NCBI GenBank assembly: GCA_913009915.1
Contig: CAJVYZ010000010.1
Span: forward strand, 1-14,209
Length of the DNA: 14,209 nucleotides
Reading direction: 5' to 3'
From: an uncultured Gemmatimonadota bacterium
GTDB lineage: Bacteria; Gemmatimonadota; Gemmatimonadetes; Gemmatimonadales; GWC2-71-9
The translations under genes and the position numbers were made by a program. Under the pieces are notes generated by a model. It made no database searches, was not told where the DNA came from, and saw nothing but the letters and a program-made list of their open reading frames with translations. Of this stretch, positions 1-14,209 are shown one piece after another (position 1 is the stretch's first letter; each line of letters starts with the position of its first letter).

Positions 1-22
1 CTACACGACGCTCTTCCGATCT
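1..22. other. Untrimmed Illumina TruSeq adapter (artifact)
   Basis: These 22 bases are identical to the 3' end of the Illumina TruSeq universal adapter, which ends in GCTCTTCCGATCT. Genomic sequence starts at 23. The reading frame of the first gene happens to stay open through the adapter, so an automatic gene caller could add artificial residues to its N-terminus. Confidence 0.97.
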
Positions 23-23
23 C

Positions 24-1655
24 ATTCCGGTTCCTGAAGGCCTGAGGTACAGCATCCGGCATCTCTCCATCGCGATATCACCTGATGGACAGACCATCGC
101 GTACGTCAGTCAGGAGGGTCTCTACGCCAGGCGGCTGGACAACGCCGAGCCGGAACTCCTAGTCATGTCTGACGAGATCGCTGTGCCTTTCTTTGCGCCC
201 GACGACGATTGGCTTGGGTTTGCCGAGAGCGGAGTGCTGAAGAAGGTTTCCCTTGGGGGAGGCGCGGTTGCCAATATTCCCTCGGGAAAATTGGTGAGCG
301 ACTGGGGCGACGTCGCTTGGGGCCCGGACGGTGAAGTCATAAAGGGAGGGTCGGGCGCGATCCAGCCCATCCTGCGATCGGGAGAACCGGAGGATCTGAC
401 AACGTTGGAAGGTGACATGGAGGTGTTTCACGGCTGGCCCCAAGTGGTGGATGACAGGAAGGCTCTGGTGTTCACGGTGGGCGGGCCGAGTGGGTTGTGG
501 AACGATGCCAAAGTAGTGGTTCAGGACTTGGAGACGGGAACCAGAACTACTGTTGTCGAAGGAGGGACTTTCGGGCGCTATGTCGACGGATATGTCGTTT
601 TCGTGCGGGGCGATGGCGCCATCTCCGCCGTCCCCTTCGATCTGGGCCGGCGGGAGGTCGTGGGCCGACCGTTCACGGTCGAATCAGGGATACGGGTGGC
701 CTACTGGGGCGGCGGCGGCGGCTTTGCAGTGTCGGAAACGGGAACATTGGCGTATGTCGGGGGTTCGGATTGGGCCAATCACGTTCTCGTGTGGGTCGAT
801 CGGCAAGGCAGACGCCTCGGTCGGGTAGGGCGACCCATGACGGTTGAGCCGATGCACTTGTCGTCCGACGACCGTTGGGTCACCATGTACGTCGCCCGGC
901 CGGGAAATTCCGATATCTATAGGTTCGATACTGAAACCGGAGAAGAGCAACGTCTCACGTTCGAGCAAGCCACCAACGACAACCCGATGTGGTTGCCGGA
1001 CGGTCGCATCGCCTACAGGATGAGCGTGTCGGGGGGTGACCATAGGATCTACGTACGCGATGCCGTCGGTGCTAATGAACCGGTGGTGGCCTACTCGTCC
1101 AACGACATCATCATCCCTGAGGCCGGGTCTCCGGACGGCCGATGGATGATCGTGACCGAACTTGATCCAGATACTGGCGCCGATCTCTATGCGGTGCGGA
1201 TGGACAGCAGCGACACGGTTGTCCCTATCTCGGTAAGCCCCAATCAGGAGTCTGATGCGAGCCTTTCACCCGACGCCCGCTGGCTGACTTACGTGTCTGA
1301 CGAAACAGGAAGGAATGAGGTCTATGCCGTGGCCTTTCCGGCCATGACCGGCAAGCTACAGGTCTCCGTCGGTGGTGGGAGCAGTCCCAAGTGGGCTGCG
1401 ACCAACGAACTGTTTTTTGTCAACGGAGACACCATCATGGTGACGAAGGTCAGGACCGGCAACCTGTTCGAGCGTGAGGTGCCCCGGGCACTGTTCGTAT
1501 CGTCTGAGAAATTTCGCACCTGGGATGTGGCGAGCGATGGAAAGCGCTTCTTGATGGCTGTCAGGAATCCCGACGCGCTGTCTCGAGAGGTTCACGTGGT
1601 CTTGAACTGGTTGGAGGTGTTGCGAGAGAAGTCGGCGGGGCAGCGAGGGCAGTGA
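24..1655 (+). CDS. PD40/TolB-like beta-propeller protein, C-terminal part; probable Ser/Thr kinase sensor half (5' partial)
   Basis: The gene is open from the first genomic codon and has no start in the window, so it is partial; an internal ATG at 165 is not a credible start because propeller sequence precedes it. 543 residues are visible. WD40-like PD40 blade motifs recur: SPDG at residues 19-22, then APDDDW, GPDG, SSDDRW, LPDGR, SPDGRW and SPDARW, ending in a SDGKRF blade. The final VVLNWLEVL motif is typical of the membrane Ser/Thr kinases with a C-terminal TolB-like propeller in Gemmatimonadota and Acidobacteriota, so I infer that a kinase domain and a TM helix lie upstream, off the contig. 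The propeller would be extracytoplasmic and bind a ligand or protein. A stand-alone TolB-like protein is the alternative. The last residues (SAGQRGQ) are encoded by a copy of the dispersed repeat. It is convergent with the CBS gene. Confidence 0.82.
   Translation: MPVPEGLRYSIRHLSIAISPDGQTIAYVSQEGLYARRLDNAEPELLVMSDEIAVPFFAPDDDWLGFAESGVLKKVSLGGGAVANIPSGKLVSDWGDVAWGPDGEVIKGGSGAIQPILRSGEPEDLTTLEGDMEVFHGWPQVVDDRKALVFTVGGPSGLWNDAKVVVQDLETGTRTTVVEGGTFGRYVDGYVVFVRGDGAISAVPFDLGRREVVGRPFTVESGIRVAYWGGGGGFAVSETGTLAYVGGSDWANHVLVWVDRQGRRLGRVGRPMTVEPMHLSSDDRWVTMYVARPGNSDIYRFDTETGEEQRLTFEQATNDNPMWLPDGRIAYRMSVSGGDHRIYVRDAVGANEPVVAYSSNDIIIPEAGSPDGRWMIVTELDPDTGADLYAVRMDSSDTVVPISVSPNQESDASLSPDARWLTYVSDETGRNEVYAVAFPAMTGKLQVSVGGGSSPKWAATNELFFVNGDTIMVTKVRTGNLFEREVPRALFVSSEKFRTWDVASDGKRFLMAVRNPDALSREVHVVLNWLEVLREKSAGQRGQ
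1633..1655 (+). repeat. Modular repeat array 1, inside the 3' end of the propeller gene
   Basis: This is the shortest array: a degenerate U9 (1633-1640), a perfect U9 CAGCGAGGG (1641-1649), then CAGTGA (1650-1655), an S7-like module holding the TGA stop. It is read in frame and forms the last seven codons of the gene. CAGCGAGGGCAG at 1641-1652 has an exact reverse complement at 1757-1768 in array 2, so read-through RNA could fold into a 12-bp stem. Confidence 0.8.
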
Positions 1656-1709
1656 CGGCAGAGAAGTTCGAATGATGAGTGAGGGATTTCGAGTTATGAG
1701 GTACACCGG

Positions 1710-1768
1710 CCTACTGCCCCCGCTGCCCCCGCTGCCCCCGCCGCCCTCGCTGTCACCTGCCCTCGCTG
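1710..1768 (-). repeat. Modular repeat array 2, after the CBS gene stop
   Basis: Read on the minus strand, directly after the CBS TGA stop (1771-1769), the order is U9 (1768-1760), S7 variant CAGGTGA (1759-1753), U9 (1752-1744), U9 variant CGGCGGGGG (1743-1735), two more U9 (1734-1717), and S7-like CAGTAGG (1716-1710). G-runs separated by 4-base loops fit a G-quadruplex pattern in the sense transcript. The 1656-1709 gap between arrays 1 and 2 has no gene. Confidence 0.85.
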
Positions 1769-2233
1769 TCAGTACGTCATCCCATGGACGTAGTCCGTCA
1801 ACATGCGATTCTCGAAATCGGTCTCTTCGATGCTGGCGCTGACTACATCGCCGATGGAGATGATGCCGACCAACTTGCCGTCATCGAGGATGGGCAGGTG
1901 GCGTATCTTGTTCTTGGTCATGATGCCCATGACGTAGCGAATGTCATCGTCCGGGACGCCGATGATGAGGTCGGTCGTCATGAGATCTCGGGCGAGAGAG
2001 GGGCAATCCTCATCCGCCTGGGGATCGCTCGCCAGGGGGCCACAGCACTCGCCGCATTGCCGCAGGATGTCGCGTTCCGAGAGGATGCCCTGGACGCTCC
2101 CGTTCTGGTCGGTGACTACGACCGCGCCGATGCGATGCTCGTTCAGGATGCCGATGGCGTCGTGGACCGTCTTGTCCGCCTCGATCGTCACGACACTACT
2201 TCCCTTTTTCCGCAGAATGTCAGCGATGCGCAT
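1769..2233 (-). CDS. CBS-domain pair protein with cysteine-rich linker
   Basis: A 154-residue cytoplasmic protein made of two CBS motifs: CBS1 about residues 8-58, with GAVVV and the GILSERD motif, and CBS2 about 85-135, with RHLPI and GIISIGDV. Stand-alone CBS pairs usually bind adenine nucleotides or S-adenosylmethionine and regulate partner proteins; the partner cannot be told here. The linker between the two CBS motifs is longer than usual and carries Cys60, Cys63, Cys64 and Cys77, which could bind metal or sense redox state (inference). A purine-rich SD (AAGGGGG) lies 7 bases upstream of the ATG. It is transcribed away from the oxidoreductase operon, with about 400 bp between them, and is followed directly by repeat array 2. 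Confidence 0.92.
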   Translation of the reverse strand: MRIADILRKKGSSVVTIEADKTVHDAIGILNEHRIGAVVVTDQNGSVQGILSERDILRQCGECCGPLASDPQADEDCPSLARDLMTTDLIIGVPDDDIRYVMGIMTKNKIRHLPILDDGKLVGIISIGDVVSASIEETDFENRMLTDYVHGMTY

Positions 2234-2396
2234 ATCGAGGCCCCCTTCGATGGCTGGCGCCGTGAATGGTATGAGCGGTACGGCCCGGGCTCCCGGATCC
2301 GACCAAACGCGTCCTTCCTAAAGTGGCCCTTGGAGCTCAATAGTTCAAATCCCGGAGGAAGGCGGTTCGCATAAGTCGTTGTGGGATAGAATGTTG
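2234..2396. other. Gene-free stretch upstream of the CBS gene
   Basis: First part of a 401-bp gene-free region (2234-2634) between divergent genes. It holds the CBS ribosome-binding site (complement of 2241-2247) and presumably its promoter, but I found no convincing -35/-10 pair. Reading frames crossing it on the plus strand are the antisense shadow of the CBS gene and show no codon signal of their own. Confidence 0.5.
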
Positions 2397-2486
2397 GTGA
2401 TGAAAGCGGGGCAGATGACAGCGAGGGCAGCGAGGGCAGCGGGGGCAGATGACAGCGAGGGCGGATGACAGCGAGGGCAGCGAGGG
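2397..2486 (+). repeat. Modular repeat array 3, between divergent genes
   Basis: Module order on the plus strand: degenerate S7 (2397-2403), short U9 (2404-2411), S7 CAGATGA (2412-2418), three U9 (2419-2427, 2428-2436, 2437-2445), S7 (2446-2452), U9 (2453-2461), S7 variant CGGATGA (2462-2468), two U9 (2469-2486). It is the only array not next to a stop codon of a gene I can recognise. It lies 148 bp upstream of the ATG of the [2Fe-2S] gene. Confidence 0.88.
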
Positions 2487-2536
2487 CCGGGGGTGCAGAG
2501 GGAATTCCTTCACGGAGGGTGTTCGAATCTCACTGG

Positions 2537-2576
2537 TTCGACCTTTCCGAGATTGGGGTGGGCCTTACATTATATT
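2537..2576 (+). promoter_or_regulatory. Candidate promoter of the oxidoreductase operon
   Basis: An AT-rich island (TACATTATATT, 2566-2576) stands out in GC-rich surroundings about 60 bp upstream of the first ATG. TTTCCG (2544-2549) lies 16 bases before TACATT and could act as a -35, and TTCGAC (2537-2542) is another candidate. Neither matches a consensus well. Apart from this, 2487-2624 shows nothing I can name. Confidence 0.25.
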
Positions 2577-2634
2577 AGCCATTCTGGATGGGCCACTTGC
2601 GGTCCACCAACGAATCCACTGCGCGGAGTTCTTG

Positions 2635-3090
2635 ATGACTGCGTTCGAAATCAACGGTAGGCGGGTCGAGTCCATGTCGGCGCCGGACACACCGCTGTTG
2701 TGGGTGATCCGTGACGACCTCGGACTCACCGGCACCAAGTTTGGCTGTGGTATCGGCCAGTGCGGTTCCTGTACCGTCCACCTCGATGGCGCGGCGGTCC
2801 GATCGTGCCAAATCCCGCTTTCGCTGGTCGAGGGGAAGCGGGTGACGACGATCGAGGGCCTGTCCGACAACGGCGATCACCCGCTGCAACTGGCATGGAT
2901 CGAGGAGCAGGTGCCCCAGTGCGGCTACTGCCAATCGGGACAGCTCATGTCGGCGGCCGCGTTGTTGCGCGATACCCCGCGACCCACGGACGACGACATC
3001 GACAACGCCATGTCCGGCAACCTGTGCCGCTGCGGAACGTATCAGCGGATCCGCCGGGCGGTGCACCGGGCGGCGGGAGGCGGCGCATGA
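2635..3090 (+). CDS. [2Fe-2S] subunit of isoquinoline-1-oxidoreductase-like molybdenum hydroxylase (IorA/CoxS type)
   Basis: A 151-residue electron-transfer subunit. The N-terminal plant-type ferredoxin domain carries CGIGQCGSC (Cys38, 43, 46) plus Cys58. The C-terminal helical [2Fe-2S] domain carries CGYC (Cys96, Cys99) and CRC (Cys131, Cys133). All eight cluster ligands are present, and the length is normal for IorA. The start is ATG 2635, with a GGAG Shine-Dalgarno at 2625-2628; an in-frame ATG at 2449 would translate the repeat array and lengthen the N-terminus well beyond the family. It passes electrons from the molybdenum centre of the next gene product to an acceptor. The stop overlaps the next start (ATGA at 3087-3090), so the two are translationally coupled. 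In two-subunit members no FAD subunit is needed, and none is seen here. Confidence 0.95.
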
Positions 3091-5222
3091 CCCCCATCGA
3101 TCTGAACCGCCGCGAGTTCGTGCGAACCGGCCTGGTCGCCGGCGCAGGCCTGACGCTGGCAATCCACTTGCCCGGGTGCGCCCGTCCCGGCGACGGCGCC
3201 ATGGCGACTACCCCCTTCAAGCCCAACGCCTGGCTCCGAATCAGCACCGATGGTGCTACCACCGTCGTCGTCGACAAGTCGGAGATGGGGCAGGGGGTGC
3301 TGACTTCCTTGCCGCAGATGATCATGGAGGAGCTGGACGGCGACTGGTCCATGGTACGTATCGAGCATGCTCCGGTCGGCCCCGAGTATGTGAACCTCGC
3401 CTACGGCATCCAGGCCACCGGGGGCAGCAGTAGTGTGCGCTCCTCCATGCAGGCCCTCCGGGAAGCCGGCGCCAAAGCCCGGGCCATGCTCGTCTCGGCC
3501 GCGGCCCAGGAGTGGGGCGTGGAGCCGTCGGCCTGTCACACCGAAAACGGATACGTGATCGAGACGACGGGTCGCCGCCGCAAGAGCTACGGTGACCTGG
3601 CCGAAGCCGCCGCCGCGATGCCAGTGCCGGAAGCGGTTTCGCTCAAGGACCCGAAGGATTTCAAGCTCATCGGGAAGCCCATCAAGCGGCTCGATCTCGC
3701 CGGCAAGGTGACAGGCCGGGCCGAGTTCGGCATCGACGTCCAGGAGCCCGGGATGCTGGTGGCGGTAGTGGCGCGGTGTCCCACGTTCGGCGGCAGCGTC
3801 AAGGCCTATGAAGACCTGGCCGCCCTCGCGGTCCCTGGCGTACGGCATGTGGTGCAGATCGACTCCGGGATCGCGGTGGTGGCCGACGGCTATTGGCCGG
3901 CGATGCAGGGCCGGCAGGCGCTCGAGATAACCTGGGACCGTGGCGCAATGGCGGAGGTGAGCAGCGAAAGTATCGCGGCGACCTTCGCCTCCCTCGCGGG
4001 CCGGTCCGGTGTCGTGGCCCGGGACGACGGAGATGCGAAGGGCGCCCTCTCGCGGGCCGCTCGGCGGATCGAGGCCGAATACGAGGTGCCCTACCTGGCG
4101 CACGCCACGATGGAACCGATGAACTGCGCCGCGTCGGTAACGGCCGACCAGTGCACCGTCTGGGCACCGACCCAGTTTCAGTCGGGCGCGAGAACTGTTG
4201 GAGCCCAGATCACCGGGCTTCCCGAGGAGGCGATCGAGGTGCATACGACGCTCCTCGGCGGCGGCTTTGGCAGGCGGTTCGAACAGGACTTCGTCATGGA
4301 AGCCATCCAACTGTCCCAGGAAATCAGCGCGCCGGTCAAGGTGATTTGGTCACGCGAAGATGACGTGGGTCACGATTTTTACCGTCCGGCCACCTATAAC
4401 CGGCTGGCAGGCGGTCTCGATGCGTCGGGCAACCCAGTGGCGTGGACCCACCGGGTGGTTGGGCCTTCCATCATGACTCGGTTCGCTGCTGCCTTCGGTC
4501 CCCTGCCGAATGGGTTGGATTCCACGTCGGTAGAGGGCGCCGCCGATATTCCTTACGGCATTCCCAACATTCATTGCGACTGGGTGCAGGCCGACGTCGG
4601 GGTGCCCGTAGGCTTCTGGCGTTCGGTGGGACACTCACAGAACGCGTTCATCTCGGAGTGTTTCATCGACGAACTGGCGGGTGCGGCCGGCCGGGATCCG
4701 TACGAGTTTCGCCGGGCCTTGTTGGCGGAGGCGCCACGGCATCGCGGCGTGCTGGAACTGGCCGCCGCCAAGGCCGGATGGGGAACACAGCTGCCAGCGG
4801 GCCGGGCCCGTGGGATTGCCGTGGCCGAATCTTTTGGCAGCTACGTGGCCGAGGTGGCGGAGGTCTCGTTGGAGGACGGGAAGGTGCGGGTACATCGCGT
4901 GATATGCGCCATCGACTGCGGCCAGCACGTCAATCCGGACATCATCGCGGCGCAAATGGAGAGTGGCATCGTGTTCGGACTCACCGCTGCGCTCTATGGC
5001 AAGATCAGTATTGAGAACGGCAGTGTCCAACAAGGCAACTTCGATGACTATCCGGTCCTTCGACTGAGTGAAATGCCCGAGGTGGAGGTGCACATCGTGC
5101 AGAGCACCGAGCCCCCAGGTGGGGTTGGAGAACCGGGCACGCCGCCGATCGCTCCCGCGGTGGTGAACGCGTTGGCGGCGCTGACCGGGCGCCGGGTGAG
5201 GACGTTGCCGATAGGAGTCTGA
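3087..5222 (+). CDS. Molybdopterin-binding catalytic subunit, xanthine dehydrogenase family (IorB-like), Tat-exported
   Basis: 711 residues, the usual size for IorB/aldehyde-dehydrogenase-type large subunits. The N-terminus has a twin-arginine motif (RREFV, Arg8-Arg9), a hydrophobic stretch and LPGC ending at Cys31, so it is probably exported folded with its cofactor and possibly lipidated. The mature part shows the two molybdopterin-binding domains: EMGQGV early, [11 protein letters not shown] and GGGFGRR (391-397) in the middle, and GVGEPG near the C-terminus, with Glu682 in the position of the catalytic base. The family hydroxylates N-heterocycles or oxidises aldehydes; the substrate is not readable from sequence. 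Start ATG 3087 overlaps the stop of the [2Fe-2S] gene. The TGA stop lies inside the first module of repeat array 4. No XdhC-type insertion chaperone is in the window. Confidence 0.93.
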
Positions 5223-5286
5223 TGACGGCGGGGGCAGATGGAAGCGAGGGCAGCGGGGGCAGCGAGGGCAGCGAGGGCGGTGGGGG
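5219..5286 (+). repeat. Modular repeat array 4, on the stop codon of the molybdopterin subunit
   Basis: Order: S7-like CTGATGA (5219-5225), which contains the TGA stop (5220-5222); U9 variant (5226-5234); S7 variant CAGATGG (5235-5241); then five U9 or near-U9 modules (5242-5286). Five G-runs separated by 4-6 bases (from 5248 to 5286) match a G3N1-7 quadruplex pattern in the sense RNA. It fills nearly all of the 79-bp gap between two convergent genes and may act as a transcription boundary. Confidence 0.88.
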
Positions 5287-5301
5287 TTAGAGGTTGGGGT
5301 G

Positions 5302-7953
5302 TCAGGGGGAGGCGCGGGAGGTGTCGGACATTTCGTCGCGGAATCGGTCGGCGTCCTCCTCTCGACCCAGGGCCTGGTAGGCTTCGACCAGATCGCCTCT
5401 GGCGGTCTTGAGCCAGCTCACCTGCGGGTCCGTCTGAGGAGCCAGGATGTCGTATCCCGCGCGAGACTCGGCAGCGGCTTCCGCGTACCGACGTTGCCGC
5501 ACGAGGGCCCGGCCCAGTTTGATCCTGGCGATGCCGGTGTTCAGGTGTTCGGGAGACAGGGTTTGGGAGAACACACGCACCGCCTCCCGAAACTGCTGCT
5601 CCGCTTCGACGTATAGCTCGCGGTTCAACTGTACGGTGGCCAGATTCGAAAGAGCGATGCCGACGAGATAATGGCCGTTGGGGTAAGCGACCCGGTAGAT
5701 ATCGGCCATCCGGCGGTATGCCGCCTCCGCGTCTGCCAGACGGTCCTGCATCAGCGCCACGCTCCCCAGTTCGTTTACCGTGGACGCCACCCTGGGATGG
5801 TTCTCACCGTACACGCGTTCCTGGATGATTAGCGCCCGACGGATGACGGTATCTGCCTCTGCCAGTTTCCTCTGAAACAAGAGCGCCCGGCTCAGACCGG
5901 TCAGGTTGTCCGCCGTTGCCGGATGGTCGTTGCCGTAGAACCCCACGTTGATGTCGAGCGCCTCTCGGTAATACCGCTCGGCCTCGGCATAGTTGCCACG
6001 TTCGTGTAACACGGCGCCTACGTTTATGAGATCGTTGGCCACCGCCGGATGCCGGTCGCCATACAACTGCCGGTCGTACTCCAGAACCTGGCGAAAGATC
6101 GAGTCCGCCGTCGGGTAGTTACCGGCATAGAAATTCGTGTTGCCGAGTTCGGTGAGGCTCTCGATGAGGTCGGCGTCGATCTCCCGCGTGCTCTGGAGCC
6201 GGACGGCTTCCTCCAGTGTGGCGATAGCCTGGTCGTAGTCGCCCTGCTCCTCCAGTACCTTGCCGAGTGCGGTCATCGCCCTGGCAATGGATGGGTGGTC
6301 CGCCGGCTGGAGGCGCTGGAGTCGGGCTAGGCCGGCGCGAATCGTTTCCTCTGCCACGTCGTACTCCGCTTGTTCCAGGCGCAGCAATCCCAGCGCGATC
6401 TCGCTTTCGGCCACGTCGGGGTGTTCGGCGCCGTGAAGCGAACGGCGTTGCTCGAGCGCGGCCACGATGAGCGAATCCGCCCGGTCGAGCCGGCCAAGCT
6501 GCTGGTAGAGTCCTCCCAGAGTGGCCATCAGCTCGGCCTGGACGGCGGGCTCACCCACGAGCGACCCCGCTTCCTGGACGCCGCGATCGAGCAGGGTCAC
6601 GACCCGCAGGCTGTCGGCGGGACCGACCTGGGCGTCACCCCCGTGGAACAGGTTCAACATGAACCGCTGGATGCGATCGGTGCGTGCCGCCCCGGCCAGG
6701 GCCGTGTCACGCGCTTGGGCCAGGCGAACGGTATAGAAGCCAACGAGCGCTACCAGGACGGCGATCACCACGCTGGCGGCCACGACGGACTGGCGGTTGC
6801 GGCGCATGAACTTGCCGGTCCGGTAGCGCAAGCTGTCGGGCCTGGCCTCGAGCGGTTCACCGGCAAGGAAGTGGTCGATGTCCTGAATGAACGCGTCGAC
6901 CGTTCGGTATCGTCGCTGCGGGTCCTTGTGCATGGCGGTGAGGCACAGCACGTCGAGGTCGGCCCAGGCCGACGCGCCGGCCACGGAGCGGCTGTCCCAC
7001 GGCGGTCCGGCCCGCCGGGTGACGGCCGAGGGGCGCTCCGGCTCCTGCTCGGTGATGAGCCGTTCCGCTTCGGCCGGAGTAGCCTGTGACAGGTCGAACG
7101 GCAACCGCCCGGTCAGCAACTCGTACAGCAGCACGCCGAGGGAATAGACGTCCGTGTGGATGCCGATCCTGTCGCCGCGGAGCTGCTCCGGCGCCGCATA
7201 GGCGGGCGTCATGAGTCTGAAGCCCGTCTTGGTCTGGTCCACCGGCACGTCGAGGCTCTCCAACTGTTTGGCGATGCCGAAGTCGAGCAGCTTGACCGTA
7301 CCATCATTCCGAACCAGCACGTTGGACGGTTTGAGATCGCGGTGCACTACAAGGTGGCTGTGGGCGTGCTGTACCGCCTGGCACACCGACCGGAGAATCA
7401 GCAGTCGGCCTTCCAGGGATGTGCGCCGGGCTTCGCAATACTCGGTGAGCGGTAATCCCTCCACGTATTCCATGGCGAACCACGGCGTCCCGTCGGGCAG
7501 CGCATCGGCATCGTGCAGCTGGGCGATGGAGGGGTGGTTGAGTTGGGCCAGTGTTCGTTGTTCGCTGGCGAAGCGATCCCGCCGGGCCGGCGAGAGCGCA
7601 GCGTCGCGCAGGACCTTGATGGCGACGCGATGGCCCAGGTCGGCTCGTTCGGCGAGATAGACGATCCCCATGCCGCCCTGGCCGACGACCTCCAGGACGC
7701 GATAGGCGCCGAACTCGCGGACGGGAATTGCGGTCTCGCCGGTGTCGCCGACCAGGTGTCCGGCCAGCGGGGCCAAGCCGTGATCGAGGAGGGAGGCGCC
7801 GCGAGCGTCCTCGTCCAGCAGGGACGTCACCTCGGCGACGAGGTTCGGATCCTCGGGGCACTCGCTTGCCAGATACGCTTGTCTCTCTGGAGCGGGCAAC
7901 TCGTTCGCGCCGTGAAACAGCTGCTGGATCCGATCCCAACGTGCCCGGTCCAT
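5302..7953 (-). CDS. Transmembrane Ser/Thr protein kinase with C-terminal TPR sensor domain
   Basis: 883 residues from ATG 7953, which overlaps the stop of the sigma gene (ATGA) and has a GAGGAG Shine-Dalgarno; a longer version from 8013 would add 20 residues read out of frame inside the sigma gene. Residues about 1-75 are a short N-terminal helix region common in these kinases. The Hanks kinase domain (about 84-363) is intact: GQGGMGIVY loop (91-99), Lys113, HRDLKPSN (204-211, catalytic Asp206), DFG (224-226), APE (254-256). One TM helix spans about 389-407. The remainder, about 430-880, is roughly eight or nine 42-residue kinesin-light-chain-type TPR units, several beginning with a HP motif. 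The expected topology is kinase inside and TPRs outside. It probably phosphorylates targets including, perhaps, its cognate sigma factor (inference). Confidence 0.95.
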   Translation of the reverse strand: MDRARWDRIQQLFHGANELPAPERQAYLASECPEDPNLVAEVTSLLDEDARGASLLDHGLAPLAGHLVGDTGETAIPVREFGAYRVLEVVGQGGMGIVYLAERADLGHRVAIKVLRDAALSPARRDRFASEQRTLAQLNHPSIAQLHDADALPDGTPWFAMEYVEGLPLTEYCEARRTSLEGRLLILRSVCQAVQHAHSHLVVHRDLKPSNVLVRNDGTVKLLDFGIAKQLESLDVPVDQTKTGFRLMTPAYAAPEQLRGDRIGIHTDVYSLGVLLYELLTGRLPFDLSQATPAEAERLITEQEPERPSAVTRRAGPPWDSRSVAGASAWADLDVLCLTAMHKDPQRRYRTVDAFIQDIDHFLAGEPLEARPDSLRYRTGKFMRRNRQSVVAASVVIAVLVALVGFYTVRLAQARDTALAGAARTDRIQRFMLNLFHGGDAQVGPADSLRVVTLLDRGVQEAGSLVGEPAVQAELMATLGGLYQQLGRLDRADSLIVAALEQRRSLHGAEHPDVAESEIALGLLRLEQAEYDVAEETIRAGLARLQRLQPADHPSIARAMTALGKVLEEQGDYDQAIATLEEAVRLQSTREIDADLIESLTELGNTNFYAGNYPTADSIFRQVLEYDRQLYGDRHPAVANDLINVGAVLHERGNYAEAERYYREALDINVGFYGNDHPATADNLTGLSRALLFQRKLAEADTVIRRALIIQERVYGENHPRVASTVNELGSVALMQDRLADAEAAYRRMADIYRVAYPNGHYLVGIALSNLATVQLNRELYVEAEQQFREAVRVFSQTLSPEHLNTGIARIKLGRALVRQRRYAEAAAESRAGYDILAPQTDPQVSWLKTARGDLVEAYQALGREEDADRFRDEMSDTSRASP

Positions 7954-8501: not shown

Positions 8502-8529
8502 GGCGCCCCCTGATCCGAGCTGGTTGATG

Positions 8530-8563
8530 GGCTCCAGCCGCCAGAGTGGCGAGGCTCGGAGCC
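8530..8563. promoter_or_regulatory. 34-bp bulged hairpin upstream of the sigma gene
   Basis: Three nested helices stack into one stem: GGCTCC (8530-8535) with GGAGCC (8558-8563), AGCC (8536-8539) with GGCT (8553-8556), and GCCA (8540-8543) with TGGC (8547-8550). That gives 14 pairs, a 3-base loop and two small bulges. It lies about 28 bases upstream of the sigma ATG, and could be a leader structure controlling translation or an operator. Confidence 0.5.
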
Positions 8564-8616
8564 AGTGACAGTTCGGCGACTGATTTCACGTACTGCGGGA
8601 TAGACAACGGTACCGT

Positions 8617-8643
8617 GCGACTGCCGATCCGGCAAGCAGTCGC
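8617..8643. promoter_or_regulatory. Palindrome upstream of the envelope operon
   Basis: GCGACTGC (8617-8624) and GCAGTCGC (8636-8643) form a perfect 8-bp inverted repeat with an 11-base spacer, 35 bases before ATG 8679. Center-to-center geometry would suit a dimeric regulator on DNA, or a 5' leader hairpin in RNA. The function is not known. Confidence 0.35.
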
Positions 8644-8678
8644 GAAGGCAGGAGTCCGACACCCTGGGAGGCTAGCGC

Positions 8679-8990
8679 ATGGTGGGCGCGGGAAGACCGT
8701 TCGGCACCGTGGACAGAATGAGCGTCATCATGACTCTCCGGGCGGCGGGGTCGCACGATCCCGACGTTCTTCGGGCTCGCAAGGAGCTTCTGGTGCGGGC
8801 GGCACGCTGGCCCCAGTACCTCGGATTCGCGTCGATGTTGCTCGGCGTATTGCTCTCGATTGGCCGCCCCGGCCCCGCGGCAGGGGTACCCGTGGCTGTG
8901 ATCGGCTGGTGGCTGTGGCGCCGCGGCGTCCGCAATGTGACGGCGGTCGAATCGGCTTACAGCGAGTTCGTGAAATCTCCATCTCCGTGA
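8679..8990 (+). CDS. Small two-TM membrane protein, first gene of envelope operon
   Basis: 103 residues, not recognised as a known family. A basic N-terminal half (about 1-42) precedes two hydrophobic segments, about 44-62 (LGFASMLLGVLLSIG) and 66-80 (AGVPVAVIGWWLW), joined by a short Pro/Gly turn, so both ends probably face the cytoplasm. ATG 8679 is preferred over in-frame ATGs at 8718 and 8730 because GGGAGG lies about 9 bases upstream. It heads a run of five same-strand genes with gaps of 9 or 11 bases, 2 bases or an overlap, and is divergent from the sigma factor. Its stop overlaps the Shine-Dalgarno of the next gene (TGAGGTGA). It could serve as a membrane partner or regulator of the operon products, but that is a guess. 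Confidence 0.75.
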   Translation: MVGAGRPFGTVDRMSVIMTLRAAGSHDPDVLRARKELLVRAARWPQYLGFASMLLGVLLSIGRPGPAAGVPVAVIGWWLWRRGVRNVTAVESAYSEFVKSPSP

Positions 8991-8999
8991 GGTGAAACA

Positions 9000-9629
9000 A
9001 TGCGCAACGGAATCAAAGGAGGACGGGCAATGTGGGGAGGGGGCCTGCTCATCGCGGTCGCCGCCGTTGCCTGTGGCGGCGGACTCGAGGGAGTCTACCA
9101 ACCCGAGCCCGGAAAAAGCGGACTGGCAGGTGGGGGTCTCGTCGAGCAGATCGAATTCCGCTCCGGTGACAAGGTGGAAATCACCCTCATGGGCATCACG
9201 AAAGAAGGAACGTACGAGGTCGATGGCGACCGGGTGCGCATCGCCGTATCGGGTGACATCCAGATCTTCCGGGTCGACGACGATGGGTGCATAGACGGCG
9301 GCGCGATTGGCCGCTACTGCCCCAAGGGTGGGATCGCGAGCGGCGATCATGACAAGAGAAAAGAGAATGGCAAGCGCCCGTCGGGAACCTACGTGGCCCG
9401 GGACGGCAATGGTCTGGTCACGCTGGTCTTCCGGTCGGGAAACGAGGCGGAGCTGACGATGACGGAACGGGGCAAGACCTCCCCCGCAATCGTGGCCAGC
9501 TATTCCATCCGGGGCGACCGAGTCGAGTTCCGCCTCCTCGAGTTTGACGAATCATTCGAACTCACCTATCGCGAGGACGTCCTCGAGGGCGTGATACAGG
9601 GCGAAAACGTTCGCTTCACCAGGAGATAG
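9000..9629 (+). CDS. Predicted lipoprotein with duplicated beta-rich domain
   Basis: 209 residues from ATG 9000; no named family recognised. The signal peptide has a basic n-region (RNGIKGGR), a hydrophobic core and AVAC with Cys25, a somewhat weak lipobox followed by a Gly-rich stretch. Two starts are plausible: ATG 9000 has GAGGTGA 5-6 bases upstream and gives the charged n-region, while ATG 9030 has AAGGAGG upstream and would remove the first ten residues. The mature protein holds two similar segments, about 31-103 and 124-208. Each starts with G-V/T-Y, then FRSG plus a hydrophobic alternating strand, then GDRV. The first copy has Cys pair GCIDGG/RYC that the second lacks; a Lys/Gly-rich linker joins them. 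It probably sits on the periplasmic face of a membrane. Confidence 0.82.
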   Translation: MRNGIKGGRAMWGGGLLIAVAAVACGGGLEGVYQPEPGKSGLAGGGLVEQIEFRSGDKVEITLMGITKEGTYEVDGDRVRIAVSGDIQIFRVDDDGCIDGGAIGRYCPKGGIASGDHDKRKENGKRPSGTYVARDGNGLVTLVFRSGNEAELTMTERGKTSPAIVASYSIRGDRVEFRLLEFDESFELTYREDVLEGVIQGENVRFTRR

Positions 9630-9631
9630 CC

Positions 9632-10030
9632 ATGAAGGCACCAAGAGAGTTGCCAAGGGCGCTCGCGCTGATCCTCGCCGCCGCGCTGGCGGGATGCGGG
9701 TCTGACGGGGGCCGGGGCGGGGGTGGGGCCGAGTCCGTAAGGGCCCCGGCGAGCGCGGGCGACGTGTGGGAGATCGCCCGGCCGGCCGACCGGGCCACGG
9801 CGGCCGTGTCGATGCTCGCCTATCTGCACGGGCTCCACGTGATCGTGCTCGACGGCGAGGACGCCTACGCGGGGATGACCCGCCTGCGCGGTGAGCGCGA
9901 CACGGATGGCGCGATCGTCGTCCCACTGGCAGATGGCGCGACGGCCACGATGACCCCGGAAGGGGACGGGATGCAACTCCGGTTTTCCACGGGTGAGACC
10001 GTCGCATTCAAGAAGCGAGGGACCTCATGA
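9632..10030 (+). CDS. Small predicted lipoprotein
   Basis: 132 residues, unknown family. It has a textbook lipoprotein signal: KAPRELPR n-region, Ala/Leu core and LAGC with Cys22. A Gly-rich linker (GGRGGGG) follows, then one compact domain, about 43-132, ending in MQLRFSTGETVAFKKR. This alternating-strand ending resembles the ends of the repeats in the preceding lipoprotein, suggesting a shared beta fold (weak inference). It starts 2 bases after that gene, with AGGAG in the upstream gene's last codons, and its TGA overlaps the next ATG (10027-10030), so it is translationally coupled on both sides. Confidence 0.8.
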   Translation: MKAPRELPRALALILAAALAGCGSDGGRGGGGAESVRAPASAGDVWEIARPADRATAAVSMLAYLHGLHVIVLDGEDAYAGMTRLRGERDTDGAIVVPLADGATATMTPEGDGMQLRFSTGETVAFKKRGTS

Positions 10031-11214
10031 CCACACGCCATTCGATCGTTCTGGCTGGCCTAGCCGTGCTGGGCCCGGCCCTCGCCACAGCGGCCGTAGC
10101 GCAAGACGGTGGGCTCGACGAAACGCAGGTGGCGCTGGTGTATCACGCCATCACCGGAGAGCCCCTCGACTTCGAGCGGATCGCCCAGGCGAGCGACGCG
10201 GTGCGGCGGGCCTCCAATTTCGACCGGCCCGATGTCATCGCGGCCGAGGTGGCGCGGTTGGAACGGATGGCTGCCGCCGCGGATCCATCCCGCTCCTTCC
10301 AGACCCGGGTGAACGACAACATCTCCGAATACGATCACACGCGGGAGCAGTTCAGCATCACGCTGTTCACCCCCGGGTACTACGTGCCGGTCGACGCGTT
10401 CGGGCAGCGGTACCAGTTGGTGTTCGCCAACGCGGAATCGGTGCGAGCCATCCCCATGCCAAAAGAAGAGGCGCGCGAGTTCGACATCCTGCTCAACCGT
10501 ATCGGGCGCCGCGTTACCAACGAAATCCGCTTTCGGGTGACCGGCCAGGGCGACCCAGCCGGCGGCGTAACGGGTGCACGGGTGATCCAGGCTGAGATCC
10601 TCGAGGTCCGGCTGATGGACCGCAACGGCAACGTGGTCCACGTCCCCACCCCCACAGCGGCCGCCGCTCTGCTGGCTACGGTCCCGTTCGATCCGGCCAC
10701 GGCCGATGTGGCAGGCTTCCGGGTGGGCGTCAAGGGAAAGGACCTCGAAGCCAGCCTGACCAGGCTGTACGGCGAGGTGTCGCGCCGCCAGGCCAAGAGT
10801 GATGGTTTTCCGGGAATCGCCACCGTGATGGTGGTGAACGAACTGGGGTGCCGGTCGATCATCGGCCGGCGAACCAAGCCCAAGCCGGGCGACGTGTGCC
10901 TCACCGCCCTGCTCGACGAGAAGGATGTGGTGCGGTCGATCCGCATCGAGCGCCGCTTCCCGCCGTTCGGCAGCGAGGTGTTCCGCTCGGCGATGGCCGC
11001 CAAGTACGGCGCAGTGGCCGACGCCCGGTCGGGGTCGATCTATGTGTTGTCCTGGGGTCCGGAGGTGGACGCACGGTTGGGCGTGCGGGCCTTGAGCGCC
11101 AGCTACGAAGCCGACAGCGACTTCATGGATCGTGGACTCAACCGAGCGGCCGACATGGTGGTGACGCTCCATCTGGTGGACGCGGCCTGGGCGTCGCGGA
11201 CCGCTCAACAATAG
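10027..11214 (+). CDS. Secreted or periplasmic protein of unknown function
   Basis: 395 residues. An N-terminal Sec signal peptide (about 1-25) ends in AVA before QDGG. The N-terminal half contains a block around FTPGYYVPVDAFGQRY and a region of beta strands ending in RLMDRNGNVVHV; a resemblance to DUF4852-type proteins is possible but not certain. The C-terminal half has a pattern seen in several envelope proteins: GFRVGVKGKDLEASLTRLYG, later SIRIERRF and FRSAMAAKYG, ending in YVLSWG. Two cysteines (ELGCRS and GDVCL) could form a disulfide in the periplasm. Its start overlaps the preceding stop and its end is 11 bases from the next gene, placing it firmly in the five-gene operon. The role is unknown. 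Confidence 0.82.
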   Translation: MTTRHSIVLAGLAVLGPALATAAVAQDGGLDETQVALVYHAITGEPLDFERIAQASDAVRRASNFDRPDVIAAEVARLERMAAAADPSRSFQTRVNDNISEYDHTREQFSITLFTPGYYVPVDAFGQRYQLVFANAESVRAIPMPKEEAREFDILLNRIGRRVTNEIRFRVTGQGDPAGGVTGARVIQAEILEVRLMDRNGNVVHVPTPTAAAALLATVPFDPATADVAGFRVGVKGKDLEASLTRLYGEVSRRQAKSDGFPGIATVMVVNELGCRSIIGRRTKPKPGDVCLTALLDEKDVVRSIRIERRFPPFGSEVFRSAMAAKYGAVADARSGSIYVLSWGPEVDARLGVRALSASYEADSDFMDRGLNRAADMVVTLHLVDAAWASRTAQQ

Positions 11215-11225
11215 GGGAGGGCCCG

Positions 11226-12347
11226 ATGAGATTCCGTCAATTATTGGCTGCTTGTCTCACGGTAACGTGCGGCATGGCACTGGGAGGGGTGGGCGCGCTC
11301 GAGGCTCAGTCCGACTCCGTCTGCACCGCCTCGGCGGCTTGCGCCGAGGTGACCGACTTCACGGCCGCCGTCAGCGGCTTTCGGGAGAGCGTGAGCGGCA
11401 ACTACCGGGTGGTTGCCGTGACGGTTCGCTTCAAGAACAAGACCGACAGGGAGTTGAGGCTGGGGTTCGTGACCGGGTCCGCCGTGGTGATCGATGACCG
11501 CGGCAATCGTTACCAGTTAGTAAGGCAGAATGGGGTCCGCGGCATCGGCGAGATCAGCAGCACCACTTTCGATCCCAAGTTCATGCTCCGGCCCGGCGAA
11601 GAGAGCGACGGCCGTTTCGAATTCTATTGGCAGCCGGCCCGGGGCGTCATCTACGGCACTAGCTACGAGATCGACATGGCCATCCGCGAAATCGATCCCG
11701 TGGCAGACGGCCAGTACCGGTTGGGGCGGGAGCATGCTCTCCACTTCAGTGGTTTCGGGGAGGGCGCTGCGGCCTTGGCTCAGCCGGCCACGATCTCCGC
11801 GTCCGACCCCTGCGCCGGCCAGCCCCGTTGTCATTTCGCCACGGCCTTCGCGGCCGAGGTCACCCGGGTCACCCGGAGTGTCTCCGGCCAGCTCAACGAT
11901 CAGATCATCGAGTTCACCGTCAAGTTCACCAACATGACGACCGAGCCGCTGATTCTTGGCTTCACCGATGGCTCCAGCGTGGCGGTGGATGATGCCGGCA
12001 ACCGCTACCTGTGGAACCGGCCCGGCATCAAAGACAAGACCGGTGTCCGTGGCATTGGCGTGATTGGGCGCGGGTCGGCGGATCCGTCGTTTGTGCTCGA
12101 GCCCGGCGGGTCGGGGAGCGCCACCTTCAAGGTGTGGTTCACGGCCCGCCAGAACCAGGTGGGGACGCGCTACGCTTTCGACTTCACCGTGGAACGGCTG
12201 GAGATTCTGCCAAGCCGGCAGATCATGTCGAGGAGGGAGTATGCCGTCGGCTTCGGTGATCTGACGGTCGGCTCGTGGTCGGGCAGTAGCGCGCTGGAGG
12301 AACTGGTCGCTGCGATGCTACGATCGGCCGGAGTCAGCGAGCAGTAG
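11226..12347 (+). CDS. Secreted protein with two tandem copies of a Cys-x5-Cys beta-sandwich-like domain
   Basis: 373 residues from ATG 11226 with GGGGAGGG just upstream; a longer in-frame ORF upstream is only the shadow of the preceding gene. The signal peptide (about 1-27) ends ALEA before QSDS. Two repeats follow, about 33-180 and 196-355. Each begins with C-x5-C (Cys33/Cys39 and Cys196/Cys202), followed by F-A-A-V and S-V-S-G, then V-x-F-x-N-x-T, LGF with a SAVVIDDRGNRY or SSVAVDDAGNRY strand, GVRGIG, DP-F-L-PG, and G-T-Y strands. This resembles an immunoglobulin-like or DUF4352-like surface fold, but I cannot name the family. The last codons (SEQ-stop) are repeat sequence of array 5. Last gene of the envelope operon. 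Confidence 0.85.
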   Translation: MRFRQLLAACLTVTCGMALGGVGALEAQSDSVCTASAACAEVTDFTAAVSGFRESVSGNYRVVAVTVRFKNKTDRELRLGFVTGSAVVIDDRGNRYQLVRQNGVRGIGEISSTTFDPKFMLRPGEESDGRFEFYWQPARGVIYGTSYEIDMAIREIDPVADGQYRLGREHALHFSGFGEGAAALAQPATISASDPCAGQPRCHFATAFAAEVTRVTRSVSGQLNDQIIEFTVKFTNMTTEPLILGFTDGSSVAVDDAGNRYLWNRPGIKDKTGVRGIGVIGRGSADPSFVLEPGGSGSATFKVWFTARQNQVGTRYAFDFTVERLEILPSRQIMSRREYAVGFGDLTVGSWSGSSALEELVAAMLRSAGVSEQ

Positions 12348-12411
12348 ATAGGCGAGGGCAGATGGAGGCGGGGGCAGCGAGGGCAGCGGGAGCAGCGGGG
12401 GCAGTAGAGGG
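12335..12411 (+). repeat. Modular repeat array 5, on the stop codon of the duplicated-domain gene
   Basis: Order: truncated U9 CAGCGAG (12335-12341), S7-like CAGTAGA (12342-12348) containing the TAG stop (12345-12347), degenerate U9 (12350-12358), S7 variant CAGATGG (12359-12365), U9 variant (12366-12374), U9 (12375-12383), CAGCGGGAG (12384-12392), U9 (12393-12401), S7-like CAGTAGA plus GGG (12402-12411). G-runs at 12370-12401 fit a quadruplex pattern. It lies right at the end of the five-gene operon. Confidence 0.86.
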
Positions 12412-12414
12412 CAT

Positions 12415-12443
12415 GGTGCCCAGGAGGCTGTGCCTGGGCGACC
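12415..12443 (+). terminator. Hairpin after the envelope operon, possible terminator
   Basis: GCCCAGG (12418-12424) and CCTGGGC (12433-12439) form a perfect 7-bp stem around an 8-base loop, extended by GGT (12415-12417) with ACC (12441-12443) across one bulged base. No U-tract follows, so intrinsic termination is uncertain; in GC-rich bacteria such stems also protect 3' ends. Confidence 0.4.
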
Positions 12444-12494
12444 AAGCGCATGAGCCGGGAACAGTGCTAAACCTCTTGTTGAAAGGGAATGATG

Positions 12495-12800
12495 ATGAAT
12501 GAAGCGACAGGGTTCATTGGTAGTCTGTTTGATTTGTCCTTTTCTGAATTCGTGACGACGAGGATCATCAAGTTCTTGTTCATTCTTGCTTTGATTGGTT
12601 CTGCAGTGGCAGCACTGGCGATAGTCATTGCTGGATTCGGATCTGGTTCTGGTGCTATTGGGATCTTGGCTCTCCTGGTGTCGCCGGTCGTGTTCTTCCT
12701 CTCCGCTCTTCTTGCGAGAATATGGTTGGAGTTGATCATCGTGGTCTTTAGGATCGCGGAGAATACCGGGCGCTTGGTCGAGATGGGTAGACCCGAATAG
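12495..12800 (+). CDS. DUF4282 family small membrane protein
   Basis: 101 residues from ATG 12495; three ATGs occur in a row (12489, 12492, 12495), and the purine-rich AAAGGGA at 12482-12488 is best spaced for the last. The sequence follows the DUF4282 pattern: SLFDLSFSEFVTTRIIKFLF, a first TM helix (about 24-47), a Gly/Ser turn, a second TM helix (about 53-75), and the characteristic ARIWLELIIVVFRIAENT near the C-terminus. The family's function is unknown. Base composition is visibly lower in GC than in neighbouring genes, with many TTG, TTT, ATT and GTT codons, which could mean recent acquisition or relaxed expression needs. It seems to be a single-gene unit flanked by hairpins. Confidence 0.88.
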   Translation: MNEATGFIGSLFDLSFSEFVTTRIIKFLFILALIGSAVAALAIVIAGFGSGSGAIGILALLVSPVVFFLSALLARIWLELIIVVFRIAENTGRLVEMGRPE

Positions 12801-12852
12801 ACGCTTGGCCAGGTAGCTAGCGAGCCCGTCGCGGGTTGGGGTCAGAATCCAA

Positions 12853-12873
12853 CGCGCCGGTTTCGCCGGCGCG
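12853..12873 (+). terminator. Hairpin after DUF4282 gene, possible terminator
   Basis: CGCGCCGG (12853-12860) pairs perfectly with CCGGCGCG (12866-12873) around TTTCG. Very stable and 52 bases after the DUF4282 stop, but no T-run follows. Confidence 0.45.
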
Positions 12874-12902
12874 CAGACTGAGCCTTGTCGGAACAATGAA
12901 AA

Positions 12903-12948
12903 GGGCTGCCAGCGTGTGACGATCTCACGGTCATTCGCCTGGCAGCTC
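12903..12948. repeat. Nested inverted repeat
   Basis: GCTGCCAG (12905-12912) pairs with CTGGCAGC (12939-12946), with one wobble and one more G-C pair outside. Inside, TGAC (12917-12920) pairs with GTCA (12930-12933). The geometry resembles a REP-like element or a bidirectional boundary between the DUF4282 and peptidase genes. Confidence 0.45.
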
Positions 12949-13096
12949 CGGAACCACCTGTGGCGGGTCAGCCACCAGCCCCACCAGATTAGCCCCCGAC
13001 GCTTCCGAGCCCCATATTAGCCCCGACGCCATACTCACTCGGTGACCCGTGAACTGCGGTCGTCGGCCGATACCGCGATACGGTCTTCCCCAACCC

Positions 13097-13102
13097 AGGA
13101 GG
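13097..13102 (+). promoter_or_regulatory. Shine-Dalgarno that decides the peptidase start
   Basis: A full AGGAGG lies 5 bases before TTG 13108. The next upstream in-frame ATG (13042) has no such site and would put an unlikely 22-residue extension before the signal peptide. Confidence 0.75.
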
Positions 13103-13107
13103 CGAGC

Positions 13108-14100
13108 TTGAGGCATCCATTACCGATCCGCACGCCATGGATCCTGACCATTCTGGTATTGGCGGCAGGGTCCGCCGCGCCGGCCCAGAGCACCCGGCTG
13201 TTCGTGGACAAGACCATCCCGTTCGAGGAGGGGTTTCGGATTTACCTGGTGCCGGACATGGAGGGCATGGGGTCGGCCGTGCTGGTGTCGGAAGTCATCG
13301 CCGGCAACGAGGCGCCTCGCTACAAGGACCGTACCGGGCCCGACTACTGGAACCACTACCGGCACCTGCTCACCCAGGAAGCCAACGTGGTCATCGAGGG
13401 CGCCCGGGCGGCCGGGGCCCGGTCGTTCGTGGTGAACGAGGGGCACGGTGGCAACCGGTTCGCCAACATCATTCCCTGGGAGCTCGACCCCGACGCCCTG
13501 CTCATCCGCGGCTATCCCAAGCCGATGGTGATGAGCACCGGCATCGACTCGACGTTCGGCACCATGATGTTCACTGGGGCCCACGCCGCGCCGCCCAACC
13601 ACGCCGTCATGTCGCACAACTACGCCTTCGACGCGTTCACGGTGAACGGCACGCGCCTCAACGAAGTCGGCATCAACGCGCTGATCGGCGGGGCCAAGGG
13701 CGTGTCCGTCTCCCTGGTGAGCGGTGACGACGTGCTGGTGGCCGAAACGCAAGCCATACTGGGAAACGGCGTCATCGGCGTGGTCACCAAGATTGCGGTG
13801 GGCTACCACGCGGCGATCACCTACAGCCCGGAGCGCGTGCGTGAGATGCTGCGTGCTGCGGCCGAGGAAGCCGTGCGCCGGGAGATGGCCGGCGACTTCG
13901 AGCCATTCGTCATGGCCACGCCGTACGTCGTGGAGTTCACCCTGCGCTCGAGTTATCCCCCCGAAATAGAGGCGGCGGTCGACACGATCACCAATTACCC
14001 GCTCGAGAAGCTCGGCGAACGATCGTACCGTATGGTCACAGATGACGTTGACCGGATTGGCTATCTGCTCGACGCGATCGAGGAAATCGTACTGCCTTGA
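13108..14100 (+). CDS. Secreted M55 family peptidase (DppA-like D-aminopeptidase fold)
   Basis: 330 residues from a TTG start at 13108, chosen for the AGGAGG 5 bases upstream and because translation then begins directly with a classic Sec signal peptide (basic RHPLPIR, hydrophobic core, AAPA before QS at about 26-28). The mature protein has the M55 order of blocks: PDMEG (Asp50, Glu52), NEGHGGN (His113), GAHA (His159), LNEVGINA (Glu186), GVSVSLVSGDD, and GYHAAITYSPERVREML. These match the expected D-x-E, H, H and E zinc ligands of B. subtilis DppA, so it is probably an active binuclear zinc peptidase. DppA is cytoplasmic; the signal peptide implies action in the periplasm or outside, perhaps on D-amino-acid or short peptides from the cell wall (inference). 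Its stop abuts repeat array 6. Confidence 0.93.
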   Translation: MRHPLPIRTPWILTILVLAAGSAAPAQSTRLFVDKTIPFEEGFRIYLVPDMEGMGSAVLVSEVIAGNEAPRYKDRTGPDYWNHYRHLLTQEANVVIEGARAAGARSFVVNEGHGGNRFANIIPWELDPDALLIRGYPKPMVMSTGIDSTFGTMMFTGAHAAPPNHAVMSHNYAFDAFTVNGTRLNEVGINALIGGAKGVSVSLVSGDDVLVAETQAILGNGVIGVVTKIAVGYHAAITYSPERVREMLRAAAEEAVRREMAGDFEPFVMATPYVVEFTLRSSYPPEIEAAVDTITNYPLEKLGERSYRMVTDDVDRIGYLLDAIEEIVLP

Positions 14101-14209
14101 TGGTGGCGGGGCAGCGGGGCGGCGAGGGCAGATGACAGCGGGGGCAGATGACAGCGGGGGCAGATGACAGCGAGGGCAGATGACAGCGGGGGCAGATGAC
14201 AGCGGGGGC
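14097..14209 (+). repeat. Modular repeat array 6 running off the contig end
   Basis: Begins on the peptidase stop: S7-like TTGATGG (14097-14103) contains the TGA (14098-14100). Then come two 8-base U9 variants (14104-14119) and CGGCGAGGG (14120-14128). From 14129 to 14208 there are five perfect tandem 16-bp units CAGATGACAGCGRGGG (S7 plus U9); only the third unit differs, with A at the variable base. The true copy number is unknown because the contig ends inside the repeat. Confidence 0.92.

Follow-up and report, generated by a model that had tools for sequence, protein, structure and literature searches.

The repeat arrays in the window (the entire contig C10, 14,209 bases, from the genome bin G000 of an uncultured Gemmatimonadota bacterium) belong to a family of G-rich short tandem repeats with the 9-nt unit GCGRGGGCA, recognized here by the motif CAGCGRGGG (U9), which is limited to one genus among the relatives searched. 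In kind, though not in sequence, they match the GGGNATC repeats known from Xanthomonas and Nostoc. The arrays occupy mainly the gaps between genes, and we give about an even chance to the view that they spread by slippage and block copying, without a transposase of their own.

The bin G000 comprises 3.47 Mb in 676 contigs and is 76.5% complete, while G001, the sole other genome of the genus in the comparison set, is 63% complete. An array was defined as at least three cores (GCGRGGG or GCGGGAG) with gaps of no more than 20 nt, and the reversed pattern served as the control. The array survey covered 510 kb of G000 and 385 kb of G001, and the step counts 510 and 965 kb, respectively. The G000 sample consisted of 40 contigs, the 30 longest and 10 picked for U9 dimers, and the G001 sample of 100 contigs, 15 of which were first picked for dimers and four more dimer-bearing ones (C41, C70, C93 and C106) added later. 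Genes were called by a custom script, not a standard gene caller.

Across 61 genomes, the U9 dimer was matched 112 times in G000, 36 times in the congener G001 and once, as a stray, in G032, with none in the other 58; the reversed dimer had no match in G000. The genome-wide spread proposed in an initial annotation of this DNA is thereby supported: the module counts in the genome and its relatives, set beforehand as the test, show that the repeats are not confined to one contig, since they are also present in the second genome of the genus. In total, 37 arrays were found in G000 and 23 in G001, compared with one and three for the reversed control. In a one-genome-per-species collection, the U9 trimer was found in 62 stretches, eight of which are contigs of N074bin45, apparently the congener itself. 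The other 54 stretches are from other genomes, mostly with one match each, and three of them are the Gemmatimonadetes bins AG23, 13_2_20CM_2_65_7 and Centralia_MAG_343.

The intergenic placement noted earlier also held: in DNA that is 85–87% coding, 33 of the 37 G000 arrays and 16 of the 23 G001 arrays were mostly intergenic. The following counts exclude nine of the G000 arrays (four inside called genes, five without a gene on one side) and nine of the G001 arrays (seven and two, respectively). Arrays starting no more than 30 bp after a same-strand stop codon made up 13 of 28 in G000 (random placement: mean 6.1, maximum 13) and 10 of 14 in G001 (mean 3.3, maximum 9). Only four of 28 and none of 14 were located in divergent gaps, and 20 of 28 and 13 of 14 were nearer to the 5′ open reading frame (ORF) than to the 3′ ORF. 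The sense arrays lay at a median of 5 nt from the stop of the 5′ gene versus 111–136 nt to the 3′ gene. The 5′ end of the G-rich strand was the one nearer a gene in 12 of 13 U9 arrays of convergent gaps, 10 of 13 sense and 2 of 10 antisense arrays of co-directional gaps, and both arrays of divergent gaps. Given the antisense value, U9 follows a sense-after-stop rule more than the nearness rule that holds for all G-rich families (see below). Neighboring U9 pairs within 200 bp were inward-facing in four cases and outward-facing in none. One G001 array (L057) directly follows a sequence resembling, as read by eye, a tRNA 3′ end.

The order of units within the arrays is far from free. Core-to-core steps in G000 (n = 168) were 9 nt in 119 cases, 16 nt in 25, 12 nt in seven and of other lengths (14 to 21 nt) in 17; in G001 (n = 108), they were 9 nt in 80 cases, 16 nt in four and other in 24. 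The 16-nt step corresponds to the earlier reading of U9 plus a second module, CAGATGA (S7), which is only one of many linkers, with CAGATGACA, CAGACGAAA, CAGTTGAAA, CAGGTGACA and similar variants. Among 87 runs of at least two units, the commonest sequences preceding the first unit were TGACA (14), CGAAA (6), TGGAA (5) and GGGCA (5), and at least 42 runs ended in ...CAGT. Since these starts and ends recur, the linker, S7 included, looks like a junction at which one copy ends and the following copy begins. Twenty-one runs of at least three units hold a variant GGGAG unit, and in 20 of them it was the penultimate one, against a mean of 5.4 and a maximum of 12 in 5000 within-run shuffles. The 24-nt block around this unit occurs 33 times in G000, six times in G001 and not at all in G015 and G032, the four genomes searched for it. 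A fixed block order at 33 places speaks for block copying and not for independent slippage at each place, and the free combinatorial design of two modules previously suggested has to be given up. Exact 9-nt runs had two (19 runs), three (4), four (16), five (4), seven (2) and nine (1) units in G000, and two (17), three (12), four (11) and five (1) units in G001. The GGG run was retained in 84 of 89 sandwiched units, and the 9-nt unit, by inspection, has no stop codon in any of the six frames.

Further G-rich tandem families occupy the same gaps in G000, G001 and G015, including (GGGCGGTA)n, (GGGCGTA)n, (GGGCTAAGA)n, (GGCTGGT)n and (GCGGTGT)n, with examples at L154:7138-7192 and L149:9383-9403. 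Polarity was assessed for all families on G/C-skewed arrays of period 6–20 detected with Tandem Repeats Finder (TRF) in G000 and G001, 167 of which are intergenic. Of the arrays within 30 bp after a stop codon, 72 had G and 14 had C on the coding strand; of those within 30 bp upstream of a start codon, the G-rich strand was the non-coding one in 25 and the coding one in two. Overall, the 5′ end of the G-strand was nearer a gene in 128 of 167 arrays (convergent gaps, 36/43; co-directional sense, 48/52; co-directional antisense, 28/48; divergent, 16/24). Neighboring pairs within a gap were inward-facing 31 times, parallel 11 times and never outward-facing. On contigs not picked for U9, 58 of 77 arrays were nearer the 5′ gene, and the pairs were nine inward, none outward and two parallel. 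With a limit of 30% of 6-mers in common, 13 of the 31 inward pairs reach it and are each of one family, and 18 fall below it and are of mixed families. Snap-back copying was therefore rejected as the sole source of inward pairs and could cover only a part of them. The (TACCGCC)n/GGCGGTA family was matched 102 times in G000, 19 in G001, 48 in G015, three in G017 and two in G034, with no match in the other 56 genomes; in G015, which belongs to another genus, it formed four inward and no outward pairs within 200 bp (48 coordinates, by eye). When all tandem repeats were masked, the G-over-C skew in the first 40 nt after stops decreased from 0.131 to 0.054 in G000 and from 0.097 to 0.051 in G001, and the skew before starts (−60 to −20) changed from −0.091 to −0.078 and from −0.088 to −0.077, respectively. 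The masked skew is weaker yet present, so part of the gap polarity may predate the visible arrays or have another cause.

The number and kind of units differ between orthologous places of the two genomes, which were aligned in 20 blocks (106.9 kb, 91.5% identity); two genomes do not show which state is the older. At least three cores, with differing units, are present in both genomes in the inverted pair at L151/L067 and in the array at L152:9065-9179/L064:18746-18833. The latter codes for a Ser/Gly/Glu linker that connects the lipoyl domain to the E3-binding domain in the 2-oxoacid dehydrogenase E2 component (dihydrolipoamide acyltransferase), present in both species at different lengths. At L040:13201, L047:4880 and L047:14074 (partner loci L040/L208, L047/L172 and L047/L218), the G000 array directly adjoins the gene end, and in G001 the gene is followed by a G-rich stretch that is shorter and below the array threshold. 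A GGGCGTA-type array of G000 has three U9 units as its counterpart in the congener (L061:9478), and at about L038:7530, there is roughly one unit in G000 and two in G001. L053 and L202 have in common a (GCGGGG)-type run distinct from U9. No target duplication was visible at the aligned sites of the 20 blocks. The idea that the repeats propagate by slippage or gene conversion fits these differences between orthologues, which prove neither process.

In the window, U9 was matched 21 times compared with a shuffled mean of 0.71 (largest 4, 200 shuffles). The earlier description of six arrays built from U9 and S7 stands for U9 but not for S7: of nine exact S7 matches (1.69 expected), two lie outside arrays (3315 and 14039), and the remaining seven are confined to the arrays 2399-2499 and 14101-14209. 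CAGATGG is present in two of the others (at 5235 and 12359), and CAGGTGA in the minus-strand array 1714-1768. TRF delimited the arrays at 1638-1661, 1714-1752, 2399-2499, 5243-5278, 12352-12413 and 14122-14209; the individual arrays read as follows.

Array 1, 1638..1660, plus strand: one exact U9 with degenerate flanking units at the 3′ end of the first gene.
Stop codon in array 1, 1653-1655, plus strand: CAGTGA straight after U9 supplies the stop of the gene.
Array 2, 1714..1768, minus strand: five cores abutting the TGA stop of the CBS-domain gene, G-rich on the coding strand of that gene.
Array 3, 2399..2499, plus strand: six cores, with both CAGATGA and CGGATGA as linkers, lying in the gap from which the CBS gene and the 2Fe-2S gene diverge.
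Array 4, 5223..5283, plus strand: five cores in a convergent gap, directly behind the molybdopterin-binding subunit gene (stop at 5222).
Array 5, 12348..12404, plus strand: five cores abutting a stop (12347), with the fixed block and its GGGAG unit in the penultimate position.
Array 6, 14101..14209, plus strand: a strict 16-bp TGACAGCGRGGGCAGA period after the stop (14100) of the M55 peptidase gene, truncated by the contig end.

Five of the six arrays are thus located at a stop codon with the G-rich strand being the coding strand, the exception being array 3 in its divergent gap, and arrays 1 and 2 form one inward-facing pair in a convergent gap. The strict 16-bp S7-U9 period is confirmed for array 6, and in the 510 kb of G000 the 16-nt step is far less common than the 9-nt one (25 versus 119 of 168).

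The initial annotation regarded the pattern as unlike anything known, but the same class was published in 2015. The GGGAATC and GGGGAYT heptamers of Xanthomonas and Nostoc are genome-wide, mostly intergenic and quadruplex-forming in vitro (Rehm et al., 2015; PMC4692102). According to that description, the Xanthomonas repeats are on average 28 nt away from the 5′ ORF versus 160 nt from the 3′ ORF; the repeats form 70 and 75 convergent pairs, peak at four units and occur by 83% in the same gene context between sister species, with differing lengths, and the authors could name no role for them (PMC4692102). As far as it goes, this description matches U9 in the G-rich tandem units of 7–9 nt, the intergenic excess, the location nearer the 5′ gene and no more than 50 bp from stops on the coding strand, the scarcity in divergent gaps, the convergent inverted pairs, and the frequent presence at the same place with different lengths in sister species. 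It differs in the unit, a GGGNATC heptamer of unrelated sequence compared with the 9-nt GCGRGGGCA and its longer linkers, and U9 is therefore of the same kind but not of the same sequence family. The four-unit preference, clear in the published repeats, is only partly seen here, and the quadruplex, shown in vitro for the former, is weakly predicted for the latter (in two of five window arrays and not in the core block). Within the published description, no counterpart was found to the fixed block with its position-fixed variant unit, the 9-nt unit with linkers, the phylum, and the several unrelated families per genome sharing one inward polarity, all of which are present here. Nothing closer was found in the open-licence literature on Gemmatimonadota tandem repeats or in later work on G-rich repeats. 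The TAACTGA heptamers of Beggiatoaceae also form short intergenic tandem arrays with a patchy distribution across lineages (PMC4679880). In contrast to U9, they are, as described, not G-rich and located mostly just upstream of start codons. The STRR heptamers of cyanobacteria are short tandem intergenic repeats as well, typical of their lineages, and differ from U9 in both unit and host.

How such arrays might arise can be pictured in two steps. Units would multiply in place by slippage or unequal exchange, a step suggested by the poor handling of loops longer than 3 nt by mismatch repair, which such loops escape (PMC4060949). A four-unit block would then be copied to further gaps, as the fixed block suggests, either through ectopic conversion or through template switching, with short GCGGGG-like sequences serving as seeds, and this copying should need no element-specific transposase. 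Copies landing in genes and promoters would mostly be lost, and an effect on transcript 3′ ends, if any, would be secondary. Several observations weigh against this combination of slippage and block copying. Slippage alone accounts neither for the block order at 33 places nor for the complete absence of outward pairs among 31 inward ones. Exact 9-nt steps between orthologues were not demonstrated, and the alignable post-stop or in-gene sites number only five. Loss from promoters cannot explain the nearness in 36 of 43 arrays of convergent gaps, where promoters are not expected, and U9 arrays antisense to co-directional genes violate the nearness rule (2/10). Moreover, conversion onto seeds was never observed, and the transposase test covered one family only. 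A bolder and rather improbable idea is that, in unrelated bacteria, G-rich short tandem repeats are written from the ends of genes inward by a strand-polar process that does not depend on sequence, each lineage having its own units. This could be, for example, 3′-end extension at breaks followed by end joining, whereby the gaps would resemble fused telomere-like ends. If true, such a process would span this Gemmatimonadota genus plus Xanthomonas and Nostoc, the latter two by published description. Apart from this idea, repeats with unrelated units in the three groups have one anatomy, down to the gene-facing strand. This points to one rule, mutational or functional, shared by the gaps between bacterial genes, and two genomes about 91% identical would allow it to be followed at orthologous gaps.

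An important question is whether the arrays are instead functional 3′-end elements, whose post-stop G-rich RNA would fold into a G-quadruplex, or into a hairpin with a facing array, and end transcription or protect the 3′ end. The start of the sense arrays so close behind the stop, the retained GGG runs and the second peak at four units in G000 (16 of 46 runs) agree with this possibility. G-quadruplex motifs in the first 100 nt after stops were also somewhat more frequent on the coding than on the other strand (20 versus 13 in G000, n = 209; 18 versus 13 in G001, n = 342); before starts, the ratio was 5 versus 9 (n = 233) and 4 versus 21 (n = 423). RNA folding with quadruplexes allowed gave a quadruplex in only two of five window arrays (array 1 not being folded) and none in the core block, and the G-runs of array 6 are 11–13 nt apart. 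Terminator-like hairpins are nearly lacking at U9-bearing stops (0/17 in G000, 1/13 in G001), which says little because array-free stops rarely have them either (8/192 against 6.4 in mononucleotide shuffles in G000; 21/329 against 10.4 in G001). The hairpin counts, with such shuffles, speak neither for nor against the idea that arrays replace intrinsic terminators. Since the arrays differ between orthologues and also occur within genes and in antisense, a functional 3′-end element appears unlikely. A quadruplex role is possible but weakly supported by the predicted folds, and as the sole reason for the arrays, it was rejected as weak. Healing of broken ends, in which a polymerase would add G-rich repeats to 3′ ends at gap breaks and end joining would close them into telomere-like inward arrays, would cover the exclusively inward pairs, most of them of mixed families, and the same arrangement of GGCGGTA in G015. 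It leaves unexplained, however, the start of sense arrays no more than about 5 nt behind stops, and 13 of the 31 inward pairs join arrays of one family, as copying would also yield. Ku is encoded in both G000 and G001 but does not track the repeats, as it was present in 29 of the 41 genomes searched, these two included. With many different units per genome, and with no enzyme or template other than Ku found in a search limited to Ku, this scenario is very improbable.

The near-invariant 24-nt block at 33 places, some copies of which are beside palindromes, would also suit a non-autonomous mobile element, such as a repetitive extragenic palindromic (REP) sequence, a miniature inverted-repeat transposable element or an IS200/IS605 remnant, moved in trans by a transposase. 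REP sequences and their composites (BIME) are dispersed, gap-bound and often paired in opposite orientation, with RAYT as the associated transposase; in comparison, the unit of U9 arrays is not palindromic. No Y1/RAYT domain (PF01797) was found in G000 and G001, both incomplete and searched for this transposase family only, as opposed to two in G015. Besides, the arrays have no constant end beyond CAGT (GT follows in at least 42 of 87 runs, which then diverge), and the aligned sites show no target duplication, making a mobile element quite improbable. The exclusion of CRISPR and REP in the initial annotation is thus backed in part: by the PF01797 result, the one test made for REP, and by the window having no Rfam match at gathering scores and no tRNA, with no Cas search made. 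The two Y1 matches of G015 are at C203:2608-2949 and C138:45-245, and one of these two contigs also carries an inward array pair. An assembly or binning artefact has next to no probability, even though the window ends inside an array and its positions 1-22 resemble what we take to be an Illumina adapter. The repeats are present in the second genome as well, where two aligned sites have them in the corresponding gap or gene, and contig ends are not enriched for U9 runs (1/41 versus 0.96 expected in G000; 0/39 versus 1.21 in G001); both results speak against an artefact, an assembly chimera included. Arrays as assembly breakpoints were rejected too: an array lies at or next to the end of the window and of C11, but only one of 41 runs is within 150 bp of a contig end, as expected by chance (0.96).

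The genes of the window neighboring the arrays are the following.

PD40 beta-propeller protein gene, 3..1655, plus strand: cut at its 5′ end and ending in array 1.
CBS-domain protein gene, 1769..2233, minus strand: stop adjoining array 2.
2Fe-2S subunit gene, 2635..3090, plus strand: Fer2 and Fer2_2 domains.
Molybdopterin-binding subunit gene, 3087..5222, plus strand: stop adjoining array 4.
Protein kinase gene with TPR repeats, 5302..7953, minus strand: convergent to array 4.
Gene without a Pfam match at E 1e-5, 11226..12347, plus strand: stop adjoining array 5.
M55 D-aminopeptidase family gene, 13108..14100, plus strand: stop adjoining array 6.

Because the contig start looks like adapter, the ORF 3-1655 probably begins with non-genomic residues; 15 further G000 contigs likewise have a 14-mer from this start near their ends. 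Arrays in called genes, apart from the E2 linker, include those at L158:4688-4772 and L065:8208-8250, with ten cores in an Exo_endo_phos-family gene and a location at the C-terminus of a Clp-type ATPase. A double palindrome, GTCGCTTTAGCGAC with a CCGCGGCT-AAGCCGCGG-like partner, recurs beside arrays at L156:7990-8050, L156:8883-8940, L149:5707-5770, L058:7468-7530 and L074:5342-5400, and CCGTGGGCTTAAGCCCACGG-like palindromes flank the inverted array pairs of L151, L067 and L157.

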